From positions 253,977 to 317,976 of the forward strand of contig CACJPG010000001.1 in NCBI GenBank assembly GCA_902595225.1: 64,000 nt of DNA, written 5' to 3'. The stretch is from an uncultured Thiothrix sp. (lineage in GTDB: Bacteria > Pseudomonadota > Gammaproteobacteria > Poriferisulfidales > GCA-002705445). A program made the translations under genes and the position numbers. Under the pieces are notes generated by a model, which worked only from the letters and a program-made list of their open reading frames with translations, did not search any database and was not told the origin of the DNA. Shown here piece by piece: positions 59,316-63,966 of the stretch (position 1 is its first letter; each line of letters begins with the position of its first letter).

Positions 59316-62054
59316 ATGTCGAATAATAAATATAATCCCTTAGAAATAGAGCAAAAATGGTACGACCGATGGGAAAATGAAAAAATTTTTTCACCATCCG
59401 GTGACGGAGATCCATATTGTATCATGATACCGCCCCCAAACGTGACAGGTACATTGCATATGGGGCACGCTTTTCAAGTAACTTTGATGGATATTCTTTG
59501 TAGATACCATAGAATGCTTGGCTTCAAAACTTTGTGGCAAGCAGGGACTGACCATGCTGGAATAGCAACACAGATGGTTGTAGAGAGAAAATTGACGGCG
59601 CAGGGAATTTCAAGAACTGATCTTGGTAGAGAGAAATTTATTGATCAAGTTTGGGACTGGAAAAGTCAGTCTGGCGACATTATTACAAAACAATTAAGAA
59701 GGATGGGGGCCTCCTTAGATTGGGAAAGCGAACGTTTTACATTAGACGAAGGTTTGTCTCAAGCTGTAAATAAGGTTTTTATAGATCTCTATGAAGATGG
59801 TTTAATATATAAAGGTAAAAGATTAGTAAATTGGGATCCAATATTACAAACCGCGTTGTCAGATCTAGAAGTAGTTTCGAAAGAGGAAAATGGAAAACTG
59901 TGGTATTTAAAGTATTTCTTTCATGAAGATAATGAGAAGTTTTTAGAAATAGCAACAACACGACCAGAAACAATTTTAGGAGATAGCGCAGTTGCGGTTA
60001 ATCCAAACGATAAAAGATATAAAAATTTTATTGGTAAAGAAATAATTGTGCCAGTTGTTGGAAGAAAAATACCAATTATTGCAGACGAATACGTAGATAT
60101 GGAATTTGGTACTGGATGCCTTAAAATAACTCCTGCCCATGATTTTAATGATTATGAATTAGGAAAAAAACATAATCTCGAAGAAATAAATATTCTAGAT
60201 TTATCCGCAAGGATTAAATGTGAAATGAAGGAATTTAATAATCTAGATAGATTTGCAGCCAGAAAAAAGATTCTTGAAGAACTGAGTGAAACAGGTCATT
60301 TATCAAAAGAAGAAAATCATAAGTTACTAATTCCAAGGGGTGATAGAAGTCATGCAATCATTGAACCTATGATGACAGATCAATGGTATGTAAAAATTAA
60401 GCCATTAGCTGATGAAGCTATAAACTGTGTTAAGGATGAAAAGATAAAATTTGTTCCAAAAAATTGGGAAAAAACTTATTTTGAATGGATGAATAATATT
60501 CAAGACTGGTGTATTAGCAGACAACTCTGGTGGGGCCATAGGATTCCAGCTTGGTATGACGACCAGAAAAATATATATGTTGGTAAAAATGAAAATGATA
60601 TAAGAGAAAAGTACGATTTAAATGAAGATATAGTTCTTACTCAAGACGAAGACGTTCTTGATACATGGTTTTCATCTTCACTTTGGCCTTTTTCAACACT
60701 AGGTTGGCCAAGTGAAACAGAGAGAGTAAAAACATTTTATCCTACAAGTGTTTTAATAACTGGTTTTGACATAATATTTTTCTGGGTAGCAAGAATGATA
60801 ATGATGGGGAAAAAATTTGTTGGAGAAGTTCCATTTAAAGAAATATATGTTCATGGACTTGTTAGGGATTCATCTGGAAATAAAATGTCTAAATCAAAAG
60901 GAAACATAATTGATCCAATTGACCTGATTGATGGAATTAATCTTGAAGATCTAATTGAGAAAAGAGCCACTGATCTTATGCAACCAGATATGGCAAAAAA
61001 AATTGAGAGTAATACAAAGAAGGATTATCCAAATGGTATAAATTCGTATGGAACAGATGCTTTACGTTTTACTTTTGCTGCCCTGGCAAGTAACGGAAGA
61101 GATATTAATTTTGATTTAAAGCGCGTTGAGGGTTATAAGAATTTTTGTAATAAAATTTGGAATGCCGCAAGATTTGTTAAGATTCAAAATTTTAATATGT
61201 CCTCAAAACTTGATTTAGATAAATTAAATGATGAAGATTTATGGATCAGAAATAAAATTGGTCATCTAATTGAAAATATTAGGTCAAGTTATAAAAATTA
61301 TCGCTTTGACTATGCTGCTAAGGATATATATTCATTCGTTTGGCAAGACTATTGCAGTTGGTATATAGAAATATCAAAAGCTAATATTAATAATAAAAAA
61401 ATATCAAGTGAGCAAAAAGAATTAATAGTTTTAAATCTCAGAGATATATTAAAGAATATATTGTTATGTCTCCATCCAATAATGCCGTTTATTACTGAAG
61501 AAATTTATTCTGATGTTTTTAATGAAAATAAATTTCTACAAGATAATAGCTTTCCAGACTCATCGCAATTTACAAACTCTAAAGATATAAATAATATAAA
61601 TTGGATGATACAAGTTGTTTCAGACATTAGAAAAACTAGATCAGAGATTGGTGTTCAGCCAAATAAAACTATTGAAATTTACGTGACTGGCGCGACTAAT
61701 AAAGATAAAGATTATTTTGAAAAAATGTCAAATTTAATTATGAATTTAGGAAAAATTAAAGAAATTAATTTAGATAAAGAAATTGAAACAGATAATTTTT
61801 ATGCTTGCGTTTCAAATAATTTAAAACTTCTTATTCCATCGTCAGGTATTATTGATGCTGAATTAGAAATTGAGCGGTTATCAAAAGACGAGTCGAAATA
61901 TTTAAAGCAACTCGAGTCTATTGAAACAAGGTTATCAAATAAAGATTTTATTAGTAATGCACCGGGGCATATTGTAGTTGCCGATGAACAAAAATTAAGA
62001 GAATTAAAAATTAAGCTGGATAAAATTCAAGAACAATTAAAGAGTTTCTCTTAA
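59316..62054 (+). CDS. valS: Valyl-tRNA synthetase
   Basis: PPPNVTGTLHMGHAFQ (HIGH-type), GTDHAGIATQMVVE, GNKMSKSKGNIIDPIDLI (KMSKS), C-terminal coiled coil. Confidence 0.97.
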   Translation: MSNNKYNPLEIEQKWYDRWENEKIFSPSGDGDPYCIMIPPPNVTGTLHMGHAFQVTLMDILCRYHRMLGFKTLWQAGTDHAGIATQMVVERKLTAQGISRTDLGREKFIDQVWDWKSQSGDIITKQLRRMGASLDWESERFTLDEGLSQAVNKVFIDLYEDGLIYKGKRLVNWDPILQTALSDLEVVSKEENGKLWYLKYFFHEDNEKFLEIATTRPETILGDSAVAVNPNDKRYKNFIGKEIIVPVVGRKIPIIADEYVDMEFGTGCLKITPAHDFNDYELGKKHNLEEINILDLSARIKCEMKEFNNLDRFAARKKILEELSETGHLSKEENHKLLIPRGDRSHAIIEPMMTDQWYVKIKPLADEAINCVKDEKIKFVPKNWEKTYFEWMNNIQDWCISRQLWWGHRIPAWYDDQKNIYVGKNENDIREKYDLNEDIVLTQDEDVLDTWFSSSLWPFSTLGWPSETERVKTFYPTSVLITGFDIIFFWVARMIMMGKKFVGEVPFKEIYVHGLVRDSSGNKMSKSKGNIIDPIDLIDGINLEDLIEKRATDLMQPDMAKKIESNTKKDYPNGINSYGTDALRFTFAALASNGRDINFDLKRVEGYKNFCNKIWNAARFVKIQNFNMSSKLDLDKLNDEDLWIRNKIGHLIENIRSSYKNYRFDYAAKDIYSFVWQDYCSWYIEISKANINNKKISSEQKELIVLNLRDILKNILLCLHPIMPFITEEIYSDVFNENKFLQDNSFPDSSQFTNSKDINNINWMIQVVSDIRKTRSEIGVQPNKTIEIYVTGATNKDKDYFEKMSNLIMNLGKIKEINLDKEIETDNFYACVSNNLKLLIPSSGIIDAELEIERLSKDESKYLKQLESIETRLSNKDFISNAPGHIVVADEQKLRELKIKLDKIQEQLKSFS

Positions 62055-62061
62055 AAATATT

Positions 62062-63966
62062 CTAAGCTATATTCATGTTTAAAATTCCTTCCATTTTTTC
62101 AGAAGTTTCTGATTTTCCTGTTCTACTATCTCCAATTATTGCTACGGTAACATCTACTTCATAAGGGTTATTACCTAATCTTTTTCTCTTTTTCACAGCA
62201 AATTCTTTTATAGAAACTATCAATGACTCTGCTAGTCTTGTTGGGCCTTCTTGTTCGATCTCCTCTCTATTTTTATACTTACAGGCTACTACATCGTCAT
62301 CAGAGTTACCTTCATATACTCCTGCCATTAGCATGCTGTATGCAACCCCAATTTCCATTTCGCCTTTACTTACTAGTTTTTCTATAACCGATACTAACTC
62401 TTCCTCGGTATTTGTATATTTTTCATATAATTCTTTATGAAGAATTTTTCCATCATTATCTTTTAAAAGTGGAAAAGGATTTGCCCAATAACTTATTTCA
62501 GTTCCGCCCCTTCCAGTTTGAGTACTTCCCGCGGCGCATCTTCTACCATCATGAAAATGTTTCATTGCAACATCAACTGACATGCTTGTATCAACCATGG
62601 TTTCACCTGGTTTTTTTAAGTCATAATTATTTATATATAACAATAAATCTAAATCACTCCCTGTAGAAACTTCGTTTTCCTCTGCTACTGGGACGATCTG
62701 TCTTGCATTTGTTCCAGCTGAGGCATTATATCCAATTTCCCTTCCAATCAATTGCATTTTGGCTTGTTCACTAAATCCGTCCAAACATGCAAAAGCGCCT
62801 ATTTCAGTTCCAAAAAATTTTAATCTGACGACATTGTCTTCCCCCTTATGAAACTCGGCTTTACCCATATCATCTGCTTTGATAAATATTTCGGAAATAA
62901 ATGGTTCGTCTGTTTCTTTGTCAAATCCAACAACATATCTATTGCAACCACAATGTAATGGGAAATCACCTTTAACAATTGCAAGAACATTATGAAGAGT
63001 TAAAATTGGTTTTTTACAATAACCAAAATAACCGTACTCAGGGAATTGAGGAACCATTCCTATCAGTAAATCATTTTTTTTGTCATGATAAAATCCTAAA
63101 TCCTCTTTAGGTGCTCCTGGAAATCCAAAAAAGAAAATTCCGTCTGGTTTTTTACCAACAAATGATTTATCAATTTTATAAAATGGAAAAAGATTTAGAA
63201 GCCCTGGCTCCATTTCAATACATCCGCGAGACTTGTGTATATATGCAATTATTAACCACTTACCAACACTTAATGGAACTGCAACCCAGTCTTCAGGATT
63301 AAAAATATCTAAATTTAAAGGGTTATGATCTAGCTCATAAAAAGGAAACGCTCTTTTATTAACCGAAGTATCATAATGTACACCAGTCTTTATATCTGCT
63401 GTAACAGTTAAATTTGTGTGAGCAAGCTTTGCATATGATGATGGTATATTCCCATAATGACCTGATATTTCAGCAGCCGTTACATTTGGAGAAGCATCGT
63501 GTGATCTTGAAACACCGTGCCCTAAACCAACTTTGTCTAGGAGCTTCCTTCTAGTTTGAACAATTAAGGCTGATAAATTTTCAGCTTTTTGAGAAATTTT
63601 AGTTTTAATAGTTTTTTGTGACTCTGCAGATGTTGTTACTACCTCATTATGCATTCTAACTAGTCTAGAGAAGCTTTTCTTTCTGTAGTGATGATAACAT
63701 CCATCTAAAAATCGTACTATTGCCCTATCTCTCTCTAAATCAGGGCCTTTTGAATCTCTCTCAAGAATTTGAAGAATATCTTTTAAAGAAAGATTGGTGA
63801 TTAAATCCATTTTCTGTTTTGCTTCTTGTGAGTGCTTTTCACCCTTCTTTTCTAAATCCTCAAGAAACTCTTTCTTATAAATTTTTAAATATCTTGCAAA
63901 TGCATAGCTTTTAAGAAGCTGCTCGGATGTGAGACATCCGTCTTTAATTTCCAGTATTGATTCCAC
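62062..63966 (-). CDS. Uncharacterised 634-aa protein with C-terminal HPr-kinase/PEPCK-like P-loop (GDSRTGKSET); GTG start
   Basis: Long minus ORF ending VDVTVAIIGDSRTGKSETSEKMEGILNMNIA*; P-loop resembles HprK GDSGIGKSET; rest of protein not recognised. Confidence 0.6.
   Translation of the reverse strand: MESILEIKDGCLTSEQLLKSYAFARYLKIYKKEFLEDLEKKGEKHSQEAKQKMDLITNLSLKDILQILERDSKGPDLERDRAIVRFLDGCYHHYRKKSFSRLVRMHNEVVTTSAESQKTIKTKISQKAENLSALIVQTRRKLLDKVGLGHGVSRSHDASPNVTAAEISGHYGNIPSSYAKLAHTNLTVTADIKTGVHYDTSVNKRAFPFYELDHNPLNLDIFNPEDWVAVPLSVGKWLIIAYIHKSRGCIEMEPGLLNLFPFYKIDKSFVGKKPDGIFFFGFPGAPKEDLGFYHDKKNDLLIGMVPQFPEYGYFGYCKKPILTLHNVLAIVKGDFPLHCGCNRYVVGFDKETDEPFISEIFIKADDMGKAEFHKGEDNVVRLKFFGTEIGAFACLDGFSEQAKMQLIGREIGYNASAGTNARQIVPVAEENEVSTGSDLDLLLYINNYDLKKPGETMVDTSMSVDVAMKHFHDGRRCAAGSTQTGRGGTEISYWANPFPLLKDNDGKILHKELYEKYTNTEEELVSVIEKLVSKGEMEIGVAYSMLMAGVYEGNSDDDVVACKYKNREEIEQEGPTRLAESLIVSIKEFAVKKRKRLGNNPYEVDVTVAIIGDSRTGKSETSEKMEGILNMNIA

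Follow-up and report, generated by a model that had tools for sequence, protein, structure and literature searches.

An undescribed relative of PEP carboxykinase with its P-loop probably moved to the C-terminal end

The window, a 64,000-nucleotide stretch of DNA from an uncultured Thiothrix sp., ends where its contig ends in the source genome. Close to this end, it carries an ORF of 634 aa in convergent orientation to valS (Table 1). The ORF has the start codon GTG, and its C-terminal end reads VDVTVAIIGDSRTGKSETSEKMEGILNMNIA followed by the stop codon (alternatively cited as VTVAIIGDSRTGKSETSEKMEGILNMNIA), which lies 7 bp from the stop of valS. A preliminary description of this DNA had noticed both the Walker A motif at the extreme C-terminus and the short distance to a full-length valS. 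The ORF calls confirmed these points, with the motif extending from G612 to S619.

Table 1. Features of the locus and motifs of the 634-aa protein, in coordinates of the window.
Feature	Position	Strand	Basis
Gene of the predicted PEPCK-superfamily protein with relocated P-loop, 634 aa	62062..63966	(-)	ORF; full-length homologs; AlphaFold and Foldseek
Relocated strand-P-loop-helix unit, residues 603-631	62074..62160	(-)	Predicted strand/helix; in-place block of Limosilactobacillus; relocation tests
Walker A GDSRTGKS, residues 612-619	62110..62133	(-)	Near-invariant in 62 homologs; fixed tail
NAR, residues 420-422, counterpart of PEPCK NTR	62701..62709	(-)	hhalign; invariant
Acidic kinase-2 motif KADDMG, residues 363-368	62863..62880	(-)	K363, D365, D366, M367 and G368 invariant; pairs with FDDMG of Limosilactobacillus
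Metal-binding His motif HCGC, residues 338-341	62944..62955	(-)	hhalign pairing with PEPCK MHCSAN; P-loop absent directly after
PEPCK-specific YFGYCKK, residues 313-319	63010..63030	(-)	hhalign, gap-free up to the His motif
NKR, residues 203-205	63352..63360	(-)	N203 and R205 invariant in the family; NKR also in the Limosilactobacillus homolog
valS, convergent neighbour, 912 aa, full length, outside the system	59316..62054	(+)	ORF call

Full-length homologs with 53-94% identity were detected in 18 of 55 relatives, a figure that includes the genome of the window itself, and the collected homologs came to 67 genome loci, nearly all in MAGs of Gamma- and Betaproteobacteria. Many of the carriers bear titles of sulfur-oxidiser lineages, e.g. 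Thiotrichales, Thiomargarita, Porisulfidus and Thiohalomonas, and the sole carrier in a phylum sample of 398 genomes was the window's own genome. Full-length homologs at this level of identity in more than 60 genomes exclude a chance ORF. The preliminary description had asked whether homologs end just past the P-loop. They do: the tail after the Walker A lysine measures exactly 16 residues in 62 of the 63 homologous ORFs read through to a stop codon, and 15 in the remaining one. The C-terminal position of the P-loop is a fixed trait of the family, and these C-termini exclude a truncation of the 634-aa protein, which had been considered as well. Invariant columns among 62 homologs include Y313, K318, K319, H338, K363, D365, D366, R422, K618 and S619.

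The family gene was intact in all examined carriers other than genome G101, where it is split on a single contig (L114:4556-6531) into two ORFs covering query residues 2-394 and 392-633. One locus with the same neighbours occurs twice, in a Porisulfidus-like MAG (L037) and in one whose title reads Nitrospira sp. bin75 (L038); in the latter, which is without aprA, the contig has probably been misbinned.

Sequence searches with the query alone against Pfam, NCBIfam and the PDB sequences gave nothing significant, and the family profile had no match among the PDB sequences. Predicted structures were also used, as the preliminary description had proposed. An AlphaFold model of the full protein, built on the 62 homologs (pLDDT 84.6, pTM 0.84), and a core model of residues 221-634 (pTM 0.85) were compared with the PDB using Foldseek. 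For the full model, 48 matches were obtained at E <= 1e-3, every one of them a PEPCK (best 8.4e-9), and for the core model E. coli PEPCK ranked first (1.6e-8), with PEPCKs making up all 50 matches listed. This check thus led to PEPCK with both models (8e-9 and 2e-8 in round figures), and an unrelated new NTPase fold, in the sense of the new family suggested before, is ruled out by strong Foldseek matches to PEPCK only. The TM-scores were modest (<=0.49) in these order-dependent alignments, which is what a model with one out-of-order central element would be expected to give. By sequence, the query had no match to the ATP-PEPCK family PF01293; 18 of the 62 family members matched it weakly, the best with an E-value of 0.05, far under the Pfam cut-off.

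Profile-profile alignment with hhalign showed that the PEPCK motifs are colinear with the query over residues 315-520. The stretch YFGYCKKPILTLHNVL...LHCGCN was paired with YAGEMKK...MHCSAN of PEPCK without a gap, and NAR with NTR. We take Y313, K318/K319, H338 and R422 to be the equivalents of Y207, K212/K213, H232 and R333 in E. coli PEPCK, and the acidic pair D365/D366 of KADDMG presumably corresponds to D268/D269. The protein accordingly contains the Y-x5-K(K) motif and the metal-binding histidine (Y313, K318/K319, H338), the kinase-2 Asp-Asp (D365/D366, invariant and paired via the Limosilactobacillus homolog described below), the second substrate arginine in N-x-R (R422) and the lysine and Ser/Thr of Walker A (K618/S619), the last two though at the C-terminus. 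H338 and D365 are 27 residues apart with no P-loop between them, so that instead of the canonical order of ATP-PEPCK, His, P-loop, DD, the family has the order His, DD, ..., P-loop. Neither the adenine-binding motif of PEPCK (KR..TR) nor a clear equivalent of R65 was recognisable by eye or by hhalign; judged by its sequence, NKR with R205 is a possible stand-in for R65.

A tblastn search of plasmids resulted in one distant homolog, AYP99509.1 of Limosilactobacillus fermentum (569 aa, L167:5809-7518), which is a PEPCK by annotation only. This record was the sole match among the plasmids searched and the only homolog found with the loop in place. Viral contigs had no match for the query family or for the Limosilactobacillus protein, and phages had none for the latter. 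AYP99509.1 aligns with query residues 56-516 (E 4e-32) and carries its P-loop between PIHGS and FDDMG. Query residues 605-634 match this P-loop block as a separate, out-of-order segment with 43% identity. The protein matches PF01293 with an E-value of 2e-5, slightly under the curated cut-off. In the preliminary description, homologs running more than 100 residues past the P-loop had been named as a sign of truncation in the window. This one protein does run on, by about 190 residues, but this reflects the usual PEPCK position of its loop, and not a truncation of the window copy. A weak match of AYP99509.1 to DUF4914 (PF16260) was seen around the P-loop (E 0.016); this uncharacterised domain may define a further family of the PEPCK/HprK type.

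The relocation was tested from both sides. When blocks of 24-40 residues of the Limosilactobacillus protein were moved to its end, the score against the family profile rose from 159.1 bits for the native protein to a maximum of 184.5 for the shifted P-loop block, compared with <=171.7 for blocks from elsewhere. In the opposite experiment, the C-terminal block of the family was reinserted after LHCGCNRYV, and the match to the ATP-PEPCK profile increased from 37.0 to 62.2 (probability 92%, E 5.8e-7). This was the best of the insertion points tried; far positions gave about 33, and a point some 31 columns downstream still yielded 55.1, as the block order is unchanged there. We relied on this test over an earlier scan of permutations made from the PEPCK side, which had scored highest (44) once the loop block was taken out, but had mispaired the DD region. 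DD was not paired with DD in the reinsertion test either, so that the DD-DD pairing is taken from the Limosilactobacillus homolog.

Since the remaining chain (residues 56-516) has kept its order, we describe the change as a segment relocation and not as a circular permutation; new termini together with joined old termini were not found. The in-place order is present in both PEPCK and HprK, from which we infer that it is ancestral. Taken together, the protein is an undescribed relative of PEP carboxykinase, and we have little doubt about its place in the PEPCK superfamily with a relocated loop. The earlier proposal that the fold is a permuted form of PEPCK or HprK, with IFIKADDMG supplying the acidic pair, was thus essentially right, and it needs correction in two respects: the kinship is with PEPCK and not with HprK, as the Y/KK/H/NxR motifs are present and Hpr_kinase_C (PF07475) gave no match to the query at E <= 5, and one strand-P-loop-helix block was moved where a circular permutation had been proposed.

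The best explanation of these data, which we consider probable, is a phosphotransferase of the PEPCK superfamily in which one strand-P-loop-helix unit was relocated to the C-terminus. A unit of about 26-30 aa would have moved there from between the metal-binding histidine and the acidic kinase-2 motif, leaving the other active-site motifs in their original order. The AlphaFold full model has a strand at 603-611, the P-loop and a helix at 618-629; the C-terminal helix 567-596 would lead to the relocated strand, which would slot back into the same sheet. With the loop placed in the active site in this way, we infer activity, substrate and phosphate donor as follows. The donor phosphates would be gripped by K618/S619 and the catalytic metal by K319, H338 and D366, whereas a small oxyacid would be held by Y313 and R422, perhaps with R205 in place of R65. 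Judged by the conserved motifs for metal, phosphate and carboxylate binding, the most likely reaction is a reversible, PEPCK-type phosphoryl transfer on oxaloacetate/PEP or a closely similar compound, which would take place in sulfur-oxidising proteobacteria mostly without an ordinary PEPCK. A phosphotransfer activity as such is likely from the sequence; oxaloacetate/PEP as the actual substrate is a tentative assignment, to which we give slightly less than an even chance. Which donor is used is uncertain, since no adenine-binding motif could be recognised.

To learn about the metabolic context, we used an even class sample of 276 genomes, in which 13 carriers from 10 taxonomic families were found. 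All 13 carriers have aprA, compared with 70 of the 263 non-carriers (Fisher p = 8e-8). Among 40 carriers from the genome collection, which partially overlap with the class sample, a full aprA was found in 31 and fragments of it in a further 4; none was detected in 5, some of which are incomplete or misbinned MAGs. The family gene adjoins apr genes at seven loci. At six it stands in divergent orientation to sat, after which come an aprM-like gene, aprB and aprA; at the seventh it is located upstream of apr (identities of the sat/apr neighbours were checked for L073 and for the apr locus of the window genome). Most gene copies, by contrast, stand alone and adjoin neither apr nor sat. These data bear on a second reading, in which the PEPCK architecture serves another substrate or donor in the APS reductase/ATP sulfurylase pathway (e.g. 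PPi- or APS-linked). The aprA association, the seven loci and the unrecognisable adenine motif are in favour of it, but the solitary copies, the 70 apr-positive sample genomes without the family gene and the five carriers without aprA speak against it, and we regard it as possible but rather unlikely. As most apr-positive genomes do without the gene, the link may reflect lifestyle and not a pathway. The stronger version, a relocated P-loop enzyme with a new phosphotransfer role in that pathway and not an ordinary PEPCK, would be a little less likely still.

Two substitution scenarios were also examined. Canonical PEPCK was present in 1 of 13 carriers and in 108 of 263 other genomes of the class sample (p = 0.012), which is suggestive of a substitute for it, but the effect was lost within the apr-positive genomes (1/13 versus 14/70, p = 0.27). 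PEP carboxylase was found in 25 of 28 carriers; a substitute for this enzyme is therefore rejected, and there is neither a metabolic gap demanding PEPCK nor a missing anaplerotic enzyme.

In the apr loci themselves, aprA is followed by a small uncharacterised ORF of about 116 aa in the window genome and other carriers (L116:10214-10564; L073:3004-3357; L068:5919-6269), and an AprM-like membrane protein is encoded upstream of aprB (L116:7010-7810; L073:5715-6506; L068:2534-3373). For the latter, Pfam gave no match (L073), and NCBIfam gave a weak one to QmoC or TcuB at best. Contig 3 of the window genome also carries an ORF (L116:19350-20003) that resembles a PPi-dependent phosphofructokinase by sequence and may hint at a PPi-based metabolism in the window's lineage.

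The loop could also have arrived by loss and replacement, with the internal P-loop lost from the protein and its role passed to another P-loop, e.g. an HprK-like one, that had become attached to the C-terminus. P-loops are generic, GDSxxGKSE is found in HprK too, and in hhalign of the family against HprK a strong pairing was confined to the P-loop region. Outside the Walker core, however, the block is nearer to the in-place loop of Limosilactobacillus (z 2.8) than to those of HprK, with a mean z of 0.8 and at most 1.2, or of ordinary PEPCK, with a mean of 1.2 and at most 2.1, and we consider replacement improbable. An HPr kinase-like protein kinase, which the GDSxxGKSE-type P-loop brings to mind, is highly improbable: the protein has no match to PF07475 and contains PEPCK-specific motifs, HprK was not listed among the best Foldseek matches of the full and core models, and the enzyme is absent from the window's genus and a separate gene in the other carriers G051 and G053. 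That the C-terminal loop is a non-functional remnant or the end of a truncated protein is hardly conceivable, as the missing kinase-2 motif after it is countered by an essentially invariant loop, the constant tail length and the invariant acidic motif upstream.

The relocated P-loop unit at the chain end, with the other catalytic motifs in order, tests the limits of evolutionary re-wiring of a P-loop active site, and the matched Limosilactobacillus homolog with the usual order makes the step between both orders open to study. The relocation is rare and occurs mainly in sulfur-oxidising bacteria, and the family has been overlooked by searches of Pfam, NCBIfam and PDB sequences in spite of its presence in more than 60 genomes. 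Its occurrence in the class sample only alongside APS reductase points to an uncharacterised step of energy or carbon metabolism in sulfur oxidisers. A search of the open-access literature, with subscription papers mostly outside its scope, found no paper on a permuted PEPCK or carboxykinase. A phylogeny of PEPCKs from 2007 includes divergent enzymes of Lactobacillus casei and Streptococcus bovis (YFGELKK, SGSGKST, VLHDD) and does not mention permutation (PMC2684135). PPi-PEPCK was set aside as a relative, as a review describes it as unrelated to ATP/GTP-PEPCK (PMC8100219).

Among known systems, ATP-PEPCK (PF01293; E. coli PckA, PDB 1oen) shares the Foldseek fold class, the order of Y-x5-K, His, DD and NxR and an identical Y-to-His spacing with the family. 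In ATP-PEPCK, however, the P-loop GLSGTGKTT lies between His and DD, whereas the family has GDSRTGKSE at the C-terminus, and the adenine motif GKR..TR has no recognisable counterpart in the family, whose score is far under the Pfam cut-off. AYP99509.1 of L. fermentum is homologous over most of its length and shares YFGYxKK, FDDMG/KADDMG, GTETGAF and GKSE, but it has the P-loop in the usual PEPCK place and its chain stops where the window family extends into the relocated loop. HPr kinase/phosphorylase (PF07475), a structurally related superfamily, has the Walker A GDSxxGKSE in common with the family (GDSRTGKSE); it is without the Y/KK and NxR motifs of PEPCK, carries its P-loop before DD and gave no profile match. 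The circularly permuted GTPases of the RsgA/YjeQ and YlqF type are P-loop proteins with reordered nucleotide-binding motifs as well. They are unrelated and true circular permutations, whereas in the window family a single block has moved.
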